From a virus: 64,000 nucleotides of DNA. The stretch covers positions 124,001-188,000 of IMG/VR virus record IMGVR_UViG_3300035698_022190; one strand, written 5' to 3'. Positions 7,984-43,836 of this stretch are shown piece by piece. Under the pieces are notes generated by a model. That model was not told the DNA's origin, did no database searches, and saw only the letters and a list, made by a program, of their open reading frames with translations. Numbering within the stretch: the first letter of the stretch is position 1; each line of letters starts with the position of its first letter. Made by a program: the position numbers and the translations under genes.

Positions 7984-7999
7984 TTACTTTCCTTTTTAA

Positions 8000-8193
8000 T
8001 TAAGATAGGTAAGGATTTGCCGAGAAACGGGAAAAGTGGTATACCAATTTTCAGAACCAGTTTACTCGTATAGTCACCCTACAGTATTCACATTAACGTC
8101 CTGACTAAAGCAGTATCAAAGTACAATGTCTGTAACCATGCACAATGAGTAACCCCCGTTCAACGGCGTATACCTATTCCGCCACTATCTTAA
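8000..8193 (-). ncRNA. structured RNA candidate B
   Basis: A 194-nt gap closed by a perfect 9-bp stem (TTAAGATAG at 8000-8008 with CTATCTTAA at 8185-8193). On the leftward strand internal helices include GGCG/CGCC near the 5' end and TAGTCA/TGACTA enclosing a central domain. No coding frame fits. Size and closing-stem architecture match candidates A and C although the sequences differ. Confidence 0.5.
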
Positions 8194-8195
8194 AT

Positions 8196-20180: not shown

Positions 20181-20744
20181 TTATTTAGTATTTTTTGCTC
20201 CACTAATTAATAACGGAGTATCCGTATCGCGGCAGTCTAACACAGCGGCAGTATAACTTGCGTCTGAAGTTTCAAAAACTTCTATTGAATACTCGTCATA
20301 CCCTTCATTATTCTTTTTAATATGTTCATCAAGATCTACTCCCGGAAACACATAAAAAATACCCTCATCTTTTTTTACACCTTTTTTTGAATTTGCAATG
20401 TAAGTTTCCAGGTCATCAGTAAGATCTCCTATACCCAAAGTAGGCATAATGCTGCTAGACTCCCATCCCTGTATTCCTGTCTCTCGTTCTAAAACTTTAA
20501 TTATGTCCATAATGTTTTCCTCCAGTTTAAATGCGTATTGCACTGCCTGACCAGACCAAAAAGAATATCCTTCGGGGGTATTATCCCAGAAAAAAGCTGA
20601 AAGGATAGTATCAATTACGTCTTTGCCTGTATCTTGTTTAAAATAGCCGGGCTGTGCTTTTACATTGTTTGTAAATTTATCTAGTAGATCAGTTTCTTTA
20701 AGCCAAGAACGTAGTCCTGGCAAAATCTTATTTTCTTGCTTCAT
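20181..20744 (-). CDS. hypothetical protein, 187 aa
   Basis: Begins MKQENKILPGLRSWLKETDL. Central part YSFWSGQAVQYAFKLEENIM, acidic C-terminus. Family not recognised. It lies just downstream of RNA candidate C. Confidence 0.65.
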   Translation of the reverse strand: MKQENKILPGLRSWLKETDLLDKFTNNVKAQPGYFKQDTGKDVIDTILSAFFWDNTPEGYSFWSGQAVQYAFKLEENIMDIIKVLERETGIQGWESSSIMPTLGIGDLTDDLETYIANSKKGVKKDEGIFYVFPGVDLDEHIKKNNEGYDEYSIEVFETSDASYTAAVLDCRDTDTPLLISGAKNTK

Positions 20745-20764
20745 AGTTGTTGCCCTTTATAATA

Positions 20765-20906
20765 AATAAGGGAGGCCAGCGTGTACTTTGCTGGCCCATC
20801 TAATATGTTCATTACCAGTAGAGCTTCGCATCTCTACGTGTGCCGGGGTTAAATGCCCCGGTGCTATTGGCTCAGCTACAGTAAGCAGTCATATTATACC
20901 CTTATT
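20765..20906 (-). ncRNA. structured RNA candidate C
   Basis: A 142-nt gap closed by AATAAGGG (20765-20772) with CCCTTATT (20899-20906), 8 bp. Further helices: a 7-bp hairpin GGCCAGC/GCTGGCC (20774-20796), an inner long-range stem TAATATG/CATATTA (20801-20807 with 20890-20896), and within it GTAGAG/CTCTAC (20818-20837) and CCGGGG/CCCCGG (20843-20861). This is a clear multibranched fold in either orientation; leftward is assumed from the neighbours. No known RNA family recognised. Confidence 0.6.
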
Positions 20907-20909
20907 GTT

Positions 20910-21191
20910 TTAATTAAATAATAATTCTTCGATCTCAGCTATCGCTTTTAGCGCATGTTCTCTGCGCCTTGCCAGATCATCTGGAGTGCTCTCAAGGAAC
21001 TCTCTTAAGCCGGGATATCCTGGATCTATTTTGTCGCCGCGTTCTTCAGTTGGCTGTGGCTGTATTTTTTGTATTAAGTTAGAGAGTGACAGCGATATAT
21101 CCCCTAAACTTCTTATCTCGTCCACTATGTGGTGATGCAACTGTGTTTTAACATCTGTTTTTTCACAAGTCATATTCTTTTTATGGTTCAT
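20910..21191 (-). CDS. hypothetical protein, 93 aa
   Basis: Begins MNHKKNMTCEKTDVKTQLHH; helical with Pro-rich middle. Sits directly upstream of RNA candidate C and adjoins the next gene without a gap. Confidence 0.6.
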   Translation of the reverse strand: MNHKKNMTCEKTDVKTQLHHHIVDEIRSLGDISLSLSNLIQKIQPQPTEERGDKIDPGYPGLREFLESTPDDLARRREHALKAIAEIEELLFN

Positions 21192-22176: not shown

Positions 22177-22620
22177 GTGCATGAATGCTGGTTTTGTCTG
22201 GCAGTTGTGGTGGGTTGGCCAGCCCTAATATGCCCTCTTTTGGGGGCATTTGTGGGTAACTGACATTGTTGGGCAGTTAAACTGAAGTTAAACTGTAGTT
22301 AAACTCTGACGTGACCTGTAAGTTTCTAGATAAATTCTCTAAGCTGGTCGCTGGGGTATGTAGCTATCAATTAGGAACTTAGACAGTTTAGTTAAAGTGC
22401 GGGTAGTTTTACCCACAAAAAAAACGTTTTTTGTTGCTTAAAATGTTCTCTGAACACTGTTAATATTGAAAGTATCACTTGAAGTCTTTTTAGGTTAAGT
22501 TGTTGGTATTGTTAGAAGTTAGGTTGTTTTCTCGACTACCGTAACTACTTTTTCGACTACTTTTTTGAACAGCATGTAAATGTCTGATAGATAGAGAGAT
22601 AGAGAAGTTCATTCCGTTTT

Positions 22621-22642
22621 CGACTACAATCAATTGTAGTCG
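22621..22642. repeat. CGACTAC/GTAGTCG dyad 1
   Basis: A 22-bp inverted repeat: CGACTAC, 8 nt, GTAGTCG. Two single CGACTAC sites lie upstream at 22534 and 22555. Likely a dimeric protein-binding site. Confidence 0.65.
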
Positions 22643-22842
22643 TGTTAACTTCTTATATAATAGTATGTTAGATAGGGTAAATCAGTCGTAACTACCAAAA
22701 GCGCACATAAACCCCCTGTACAGATACGCATTTCGTTTTTAAATTAAAAATGTGAAATATTCAGTTACATAGGGGTCTTATACGGCTTTTTGGTAGTTAG
22801 GGGTCGTTTTTGGCTGTAAGTCTTGATATTGCTTGATTTGTT

Positions 22843-22864
22843 CGACTACAATTGTTGGTAGTCG
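22843..22864. repeat. CGACTAC/GTAGTCG dyad 2
   Basis: Same 22-bp geometry as dyad 1 with a different 8-nt centre, which argues for a bound protein dimer and not simple duplication. Confidence 0.65.
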
Positions 22865-22911
22865 TGTTTTTGAAAATCTCTTGTAAGTTATTGATAAATA
22901 AGGTAGTTGCT

Positions 22912-22933
22912 CGACTACAATTTTTTGTAGTCG
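22912..22933. repeat. CGACTAC/GTAGTCG dyad 3
   Basis: Third dyad with identical arm spacing. A lone GTAGTCG follows at 22948-22954. Confidence 0.65.
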
Positions 22934-23230
22934 AAACGGCTCTTTTTGTAGTCGAGATGGCTTAAGTACTGTGTTATCAATATGATTAACACTGTTCAGA
23001 AAATTTAAGTAAGAAAAAACGCTTAGCCGTAGGCAATGAAAGTGCCATAGCAAACAAAAAAACGTTTTTTCTATCTTATTCTCAAAGATTTTTCCAGAGA
23101 CCCCACTCGACCAGTAGAGCATAGATGGACAATTGCTAGAAGGAGGTAGCCCAACCTCATAATTTATATGTGCCATCGGTAACCGATCCTACCCCTGCGG
23201 GAGCCGGTTATTCCGAATAGCTATACTGCT

Positions 23231-23826: not shown

Positions 23827-24181
23827 CTCTTAACTCCTTCAGCAGCATATCTGTAATGTTAATAACATCTCGTCTCTCTGCGTCTACATATATAATTTGA
23901 TGTTCCATCTCAATAATGCTCGGACAAGTGAATTGTAGTATACCAAATCCTTTGTCTACCATTTCTTCAATATCTTTGACCGAGAACCAGGATAATAGGC
24001 CAGCTTTATCAGCTACTGCGGTTTTCCAGTTCTTGCCATCAGTTTGGTGGATTGGATCATAAGGCATTGGCAAATTAAGCAATCTGTCATCTGACAACTG
24101 CTCAAGTACCAGTTTACCATCAATTTTTGTAGTCCACATTCCATTTGATTCATCTAAATGTTCTATTCTACACAACCTCAT
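23816..24181 (-). CDS. hypothetical protein, 121 aa
   Basis: Begins MRLCRIEHLDESNGMWTTKI. Mixed alpha/beta, no motif recognised. Overlaps its neighbours by 11-14 nt. Confidence 0.6.
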   Translation of the reverse strand: MRLCRIEHLDESNGMWTTKIDGKLVLEQLSDDRLLNLPMPYDPIHQTDGKNWKTAVADKAGLLSWFSVKDIEEMVDKGFGILQFTCPSIIEMEHQIIYVDAERRDVINITDMLLKELRDDS

Positions 24182-24536
24182 CTCGTAATTCCTTATATTT
24201 ACCGGCTATTACTCCTAAGCGTTGCTTTTCAAGAGTAAAGCCATGTTCAGCAGGATTTTCTGTCATATATGTAGCTGCTAACTGCTCAGTAGCAAATACC
24301 TGAAAATCTGTATCTATTCCGTCCCAGCCCATATCAATATAGACTAACCATACTTCTTGGTGATAGGCTAATTGATGACTAGCACCAATTAATGCTACGT
24401 TTAGGCTGGATAAAGCTTTATCTTTGGCGTCTTTTAGTCTTTTATCACTCATACATTTTAAGCAAAGATCTTCAGACCACCACACTGCATTAGATATTGT
24501 ACTGCTGCATTCTCTGCAGATCTTTTCTTCTGCCAT
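24168..24536 (-). CDS. protein with N-terminal zinc ribbon, 122 aa
   Basis: Start set at MAEEKICRECSS (24534-24536), because the longer frame would run through the tRNA-like element at 24557-24623. CRECSS and CLKCMS form a four-Cys knuckle. The C-terminal part YIDMGWDGIDTDFQVFATEQ is unassigned. Confidence 0.65.
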   Translation of the reverse strand: MAEEKICRECSSTISNAVWWSEDLCLKCMSDKRLKDAKDKALSSLNVALIGASHQLAYHQEVWLVYIDMGWDGIDTDFQVFATEQLAATYMTENPAEHGFTLEKQRLGVIAGKYKELRDEVV

Positions 24537-24556
24537 TTGCGTCTCCTTTAAAATTG

Positions 24557-24623
24557 CTAAGTATGCCGGAATCGAACCGGCGTCACTCGTTTGTGAGTAT
24601 ATTACCCCTCTACCAATACTTAG
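24557..24623 (-). tRNA. tRNA-like element T1, short and with an odd anticodon region
   Basis: Acceptor-like 8-bp stem CTAAGTAT/ATACTTAG and a perfect T-arm, GCCGG-TTCGATT-CCGGC, directly next to it in the tRNA arrangement. The whole is only 67 nt, about eight short of normal. Between D-like and T regions I see a 4-bp ACTC/GAGT hairpin with a 6-nt loop and no U33, so no anticodon can be assigned. It may be a tRNA-like element, a decayed tRNA or a tRNA with an unusual fold. No CCA is encoded. Confidence 0.5.
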
Positions 24624-24628
24624 GTTCA

Positions 24629-24645
24629 TCTGGTCGCGAACCAGA
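24629..24645 (-). other. isolated T-arm-like hairpin
   Basis: TCTGG-TTCGCGA-CCAGA resembles a tRNA T-arm but has C in place of the invariant A58. I found no matching acceptor partner. Confidence 0.3.
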
Positions 24646-43513: not shown

Positions 43514-43536
43514 GTTAACTCCTTATTTAGTTATTC

Positions 43537-43546
43537 TTCTTATACC
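43537..43546 (-). promoter_or_regulatory. leftward cassette promoter motif
   Basis: GGTATAAGAA 24 nt upstream of the RadC-like start. Confidence 0.65.
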
Positions 43547-43615
43547 TAAAAACCTCCCCAAAAGCTTCTCAAAACCTATTAATTTTTAAGCTAAAAAGCT
43601 CTTATTAAAAAACTA

Positions 43616-43645
43616 GCAGGGTAGCTTATACTTCCTACCCTGCTC
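43616..43645 (-). terminator. intrinsic terminator
   Basis: Perfect 10-bp AGCAGGGTAG/CTACCCTGCT hairpin with a T-run on the leftward strand. Confidence 0.65.
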
Positions 43646-43682
43646 TCGGTTTGAATAAACATGAAAATTTTATTTTTAAAAT

Positions 43683-43715
43683 GAGCAGGGCGGATATTGT
43701 GGTCTACCCTGCTCG
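43683..43715 (-). terminator. second hairpin with the same arms
   Basis: GAGCAGGG/CCCTGCTC hairpin 38 nt from the previous one, no strong T-run. Confidence 0.45.
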
Positions 43716-43836
43716 GTAACTAGTAAAAAACATTTTTGTTTTTCTTAGCTTCGTTAGTTGTCCTAGTAGTGAATTAACTGTATGACAGTTCTAGCTAGCC
43801 CCCGTGTAAACAAAACTGTTTTTTCGTCGTTAAATT

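Follow-up and report, generated by a model that had tools for sequence, protein, structure and literature searches.

A strongly folding gap between co-directional genes of a tailed phage as a plausible structured RNA

The stretch of DNA analyzed here (the window, 64,000 nucleotides) covers positions 124001-188000 of a viral record of 210,208 bp whose source is a tailed phage. Its portal protein is 34% identical to a Vibrio phage D69 protein and 79% identical to the portal of an IMG/VR fragment. The contig carries approximately 26 tRNA genes and one tmRNA, and the phage encodes two RNA-repair proteins, one RtcB-like (recognized from sequence) and one RlaP-like (Pfam). All predicted genes from 25207 to 14367 of the window lie on the minus strand; a minus-strand transcript therefore probably crosses the gap at 20745-20909. 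The protein encoded downstream of this gap (187 aa) has just weak PHROG matches, themselves of unknown function, and no match in Pfam, NCBIfam, or PADLOC, while the upstream protein (93 aa) has no family match among PHROG, Pfam, and NCBIfam profiles. Further upstream, a tRNA at window positions 24557-24622 (minus strand; Rfam, 41.6 bits) was missed by ARAGORN. It overlaps the start of the mechanically listed open reading frame (ORF) 24168-24629, so that gene probably begins later, at 24536. The features of the gap are as follows.

20910..21191, minus strand: upstream gene, 93 aa (ORF), whose stop codon abuts the folded element
20745-20909: whole gap between the 93-aa and 187-aa genes, both on the minus strand
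20181..20744, minus strand: downstream gene, 187 aa (ORF)
20753..20758, minus strand: Shine-Dalgarno-like AAAGGG of the 187-aa gene, from the upstream sequence of gene starts
20765..20906, most likely minus strand: whole element, 142 bases (shuffle z on both strands; co-directional genes on either side)
20765-20772/20899-20906: outer stem P1, AATAAGGG/CCCTTATT, 8 Watson-Crick bp
20765..20772: P1 arm AATAAGGG, which reads CCCUUAUU on the minus strand and is the 3' arm there
20899..20906: P1 arm CCCTTATT, which reads AAUAAGGG on the minus strand and is the 5' arm there
20801-20807/20890-20896: inner long-range stem P1b, TAATATG/CATATTA, 7 Watson-Crick bp
20774-20780/20790-20796: hairpin P2, GGCCAGC/GCTGGCC, 7 bp, with an eighth, G-U pair on the plus strand
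20818-20823/20832-20837: hairpin P3, GTAGAG-CTTCGCAT-CTCTAC, 6 bp
20840..20864: hairpin P4, with a 6-bp core at 20843-20848/20856-20861, CCGGGG-TTAAATG-CCCCGG
20893..20900, minus strand: TATAAT-like box GGTATAAT, a weak match (score, 8.1) to the phage motif GGTATAAGAA

A preliminary description of this gap had listed two nested long-range stems (8 and 7 bp) and three hairpins (7, 6, and 6 bp), and all five helices were located in the element. Its picture of an AT-rich spacer almost filled by stems did not hold: the G+C content of the element is 47%, versus 36.7% for the contig, and 68 of the 142 bases (48%) are paired, such that the stems span the gap and do not fill it. Its central point, that the pairing lies far above chance, was borne out by dinucleotide-shuffled controls, with the energy falling clearly outside the shuffled range. 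The plus strand of 20765-20906 folds at −55.2 kcal/mol, compared with −37.7 ± 3.6 kcal/mol for shuffles (z, −4.83; 0 of 1,000 shuffles as stable), and the minus strand folds at −48.7 kcal/mol, compared with −35.7 ± 3.7 kcal/mol (z, −3.50; 1 of 1,000). When the whole gap, whose borders (20745-20909) are independent of the choice of stems, was treated in the same way, z was −3.65 on the plus strand and −2.92 on the minus strand. Helices were also counted directly, with neither an energy model nor wobble pairs, as perfect Watson-Crick helices in 2,000 composition-matched shuffles of the whole gap. Three hairpins, each 6 bp or longer, arose in 3 shuffles and a nested pair of long-range stems arose in 5; the two together arose in none. 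Since the energy is not within the shuffled range, selection for pairing is plausible.

Ranked by best z, this gap comes approximately sixth of 118 in the contig, indicating that its folding is real but not unique in the phage, whose gaps overall fold somewhat better than shuffles (mean z, −0.8). The strongest-folding gap of the contig, at window positions 43514-43836, reaches a z of approximately −7.8 on the minus strand and so ranks above the element. A nearly gene-free, G+C-richer stretch of 2.2 kb (contig 73614-75816; L005 13614-15816) folds on both strands, with z down to −6.3, and has no Rfam match.

In every tested context, the local hairpins P2 to P4 form whichever strand is folded. 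P2 has a pairing probability of 1.0 on both strands in all contexts, and P3 has a probability of 0.91 to 0.96 on both strands. The long-range stems depend on context. P1 has a pairing probability of 0.93 in isolation, which falls to about 0.4 to 0.6 in longer minus-strand transcripts and to 0.01 to 0.05 in longer plus-strand transcripts; P1b has probabilities of 0.84 (minus) and 0.30 (plus) in isolation and of 0.35 to 0.55 (minus) and 0.13 (plus) in longer transcripts. In longer plus-strand transcripts the local hairpin CCCUUUAUAAUAAAUAAGGG captures a P1 arm, and local pairing thus outcompetes the nested long-range stems. Evidence on the strand of the element is split. The plus strand is 6.5 kcal/mol more stable than the minus strand, and wobble pairs lengthen P4 there (10 bp, counting three wobble pairs); for 21 of 25 tRNAs of this phage, the sense strand folds better than its complement. 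In favor of the minus strand are the direction of both flanking genes and the better retention of P1 and P1b once flanking sequence is included. An element within an operon is generally read in the same direction as the operon, and for this reason we weight the minus strand as distinctly the likelier, while regarding the strand as uncertain.

Searches for relatives returned the element and little else. No Rfam covariance model reached its gathering score in the gap, and matches with E values up to 10 were at chance level, the best in or beside the gap (E = 0.4) being far below gathering scores. ARAGORN and the Rfam models RF00005 and RF00023 found no tRNA or tmRNA in the gap. By blastn, the element matched only chance pieces in phages, no homologue in plasmids, itself alone (a single copy) in its own contig, and one 16-bp piece in 15 related phage records. 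A single-sequence covariance model run against 0.9 Mb of this phage and its relatives (0.7 Mb from the relatives) recovered only the element itself. Hairpin-stem patterns gave 0 matches in IMG/VR and GTDB genomes, although these patterns demand exact stems and would miss relatives with changed stems. The neighboring proteins (187-aa, 256-aa, 93-aa, and RlaP-like) led to no related locus in IMG/VR, GTDB, or phages, and in the first 30 kb only RtcB, RlaP, and two small proteins match related phages. Synteny therefore gave no alignment and, with no homologue, there is no covariation to assess. Nothing in these results shows membership of a known family, and a new class would rest on one sequence. 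As to the proposal in the preliminary description that the element is a structured RNA, the parts that stood are pairing in excess of shuffles and three robust hairpins; against it are folding on both strands, no covariation, no Rfam match, no convincing promoter or terminator to delimit a transcript, and long-range stems that are partly outcompeted. On the folding models, we consider a structured RNA at 20765-20906 plausible.

Signals that might delimit a transcript were sought in the gap. A sigma-70 scan found no passing promoter-like site inside the gap or at its edges. Both strands have a TATAAT box just upstream (20758-20763 on the plus strand and 20898-20893 on the minus strand), and the score of the minus-strand box is at background, with 6 minus-strand and 6 plus-strand positions reaching 8 to 9. 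A promoter of the phage GGTATAAGAA class was dropped from consideration, the copy here being degenerate (GGTATAATAT) with a score at background. No intrinsic terminator (a G+C-rich hairpin followed by a T run) was found in the gap on either strand, and a terminator reading of the hairpins was rejected for want of the T run. A 6-codon upstream frame (ATG ACT GCT TAC TGT AGC TGA; 20892-20872, minus strand) behind AAGGG is plausible and likely due to chance.

Twenty copies of the decamer GGTATAAGAA itself occur in the contig; every one is a minus-strand copy within a gap, and most precede a minus-strand gene by 30 to 140 nt. Thirteen are in the window (minus strand; 26764, 28451, 28718, 29738, 30711, 37625, 40750, 42576, 43546, 45530, 49767, 49897, and 50745) and 7 more are outside it. 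Of 12 related IMG/VR records, 11 contain it, with nearly all copies on a single strand. It has the appearance of a phage-specific, conserved promoter. The motif of plus-strand genes is another one, near TTATATTTAA. A 1.4-kb stretch with no clear genes contains, at window positions 22618-22937, three copies of the hairpin CGACTACAAT...ATTGTAGTCG, of which one has a T-rich tail.

The reading that we favor, tentatively and at a little short of an even chance, is that the gap is a structured cis-acting element in a minus-strand operon mRNA, the leader of the 187-aa gene, which would tune translation or stability. On the minus strand, the 3' end of P1 lies 20 nt before the start codon of this gene, and the P1 3' arm (CCCUUAUU) is complementary both to the 5' arm (AAUAAGGG) and to the AAAGGG Shine-Dalgarno. 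In the alternative pairing, CCCUU of the 3' arm (20772-20768) would join AAAGGG in a 5-bp hairpin, whose predicted probability is weak (0.2 to 0.35 in a readthrough transcript and 0.3 to 0.5 if transcription starts at about 20887). With P1 closed, AAAGGG would be free and the ribosome site open; with P1 lost, the 5-bp hairpin could form over the Shine-Dalgarno. The choice between the two pairings might then tune translation or stability of the downstream message, with the presence of a ribosome on the 93-aa gene, a ligand, cleavage by RNase III, or the position of the transcription start as candidate triggers. Such translational control is plausible, at less than even odds because the pairing is short (5 bp) and was recognized post hoc. 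We count the lack of an intrinsic-terminator-like site on either strand in favor of the leader model. Counting against it, transcription from the TATAAT-like box at 20898-20893 (minus) would yield an RNA lacking the 5' arms of P1 and P1b, and both the lower energy of the plus strand and the sense-strand trend of the tRNAs weigh against a minus-strand leader. Were the model extended to a new class of phage leader RNA, in which a P1 arm switches between a pairing that closes the fold and one that masks the Shine-Dalgarno so that a lineage-specific protein answers an infection signal, we would judge it very unlikely.

A stand-alone phage noncoding RNA of approximately 140 nt, read from either strand, stabilized by its hairpins, and acting in trans, is rather unlikely, although several properties of the element suit it. 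These include the elevated G+C content with strong hairpins, the wobble-extended P4 and the associated energy gain on the plus strand, a TATAAT box just upstream on both strands, and the existence of phage small RNAs of similar size, such as PreS of lambda (PMC12197685). However, the starts expected 6 to 7 nt after either TATAAT would cut into P1, and P1 nearly vanishes in plus-strand transcripts longer than the element. The failure of any site to pass the promoter scan, the lack of an intrinsic terminator, and the lack of a homologue in the collections searched also argue against such an RNA.

We consider it unlikely that the pairing is incidental to something other than RNA, namely, inverted repeats acting at the DNA level (protein binding or cruciform), a decayed coding remnant, or a recent GC-richer insert. 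In favor of such an origin, most of the helices are perfect Watson-Crick and hence equal on both strands, and the surrounding genes are without relatives in other phages, as in a region of fast turnover. For a coding remnant, the minus-strand frame that carries on from the upstream gene contains 43 codons uninterrupted by stops, and its codon use resembles that of genes (0.171 bits per codon, against a level of 0.142 that 5% of wrong frames surpass and a mean of 0.277 for real genes), yet this score is unremarkable given that six frames were tested. The frame is preceded by two stops, has no ATG, GTG, or TTG until an internal ATG that leaves 24 aa, and gave nothing below an E value of approximately 9 when its peptide was searched by tblastn; a small protein in this frame was rejected on the grounds of no start codon and no relatives. 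With respect to an insert, the contig contains no second copy of the gap, and its 8-bp ends are not flanked by a target-site duplication; a MITE or other repeated mobile element was dropped on the same two observations. Pairing in excess of composition-matched shuffles argues against all of these origins.

A known RNA class too divergent for its models (a tRNA-like remnant, riboswitch, ribozyme, or retron msr-msd RNA) is most improbable. Many such RNAs do share the general plan of hairpins enclosed by a closing stem, and a retron-type reverse transcriptase is encoded elsewhere in the phage genome, but no Rfam family scores better than E = 0.4, ARAGORN finds no tRNA, and the reverse transcriptase lies approximately 66 kb away with a folding gap of its own directly upstream. 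The genes adjoining the element have no match to a retron reverse transcriptase, and a tRNA-like reading of P3 and P4, as look-alikes of the anticodon arm and T arm, was dropped, there being no fitting acceptor and no model match.

The reverse transcriptase (contig 77619-78554; L005 17619-18554, minus strand) matches Pfam RVT_1 (6.6e-21), PADLOC RT_XIII (4.4e-75), and, just below the cutoff, the NCBIfam retron St85 RT (5.1e-65). The gap directly upstream of it is 365 nt long, folds with a z of −2.8 over 246 nt, and could be its msr-msd RNA. A further gap, at window positions 7984-8195 (minus strand), opens like a tRNA-Leu gene (AAGATAG TG GCGGAATAGGTATACGCC) and has a matching acceptor arm, CTATCTT, approximately 180 nt later. 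No tRNA model fires there, and the gap is possibly an interrupted or degenerate tRNA.

Large phages have many gene-poor spacers without a known role, and a fold that passes composition-matched tests singles out 20765-20906 among them. The initial observation was confirmed, and what it describes is one orphan structured element, ordinary to mildly interesting and of modest novelty; as a single orphan sequence, it gives the finding small weight. If the translation switch exists, it would add a regulatory RNA to phages in which Rfam scans named only tRNAs and tmRNA. The tRNA region of T4 encodes the stable RNAs C and D, of about 120 to 140 nt and unknown function. The element resembles them in RNA length and in belonging to a tRNA-rich phage genome; unlike them, it is not part of the tRNA cluster, from which more than 35 kb separate it, and blastn of a phage collection that should hold T4 gave no sequence relation to T4. 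PreS of lambda is a phage-encoded small RNA of about 88 nt (PMC12197685). The element is likewise intergenic, in a similar size range, and in a phage genome, whereas it is a candidate from sequence, with no promoter or terminator found in the gap. The GC-IGR approach has yielded structured candidates of the 5'-leader and riboswitch type in GC-rich intergenic regions, built from homologues and covariation (PMC6429828, PMC8632094). In contrast to these candidates, the element is a single phage sequence with no homologue; like them, it is a gap of high G+C content that folds strongly and precedes a gene and, compared with riboswitch-type leaders, it has an outer-stem arm that could also mask the Shine-Dalgarno.
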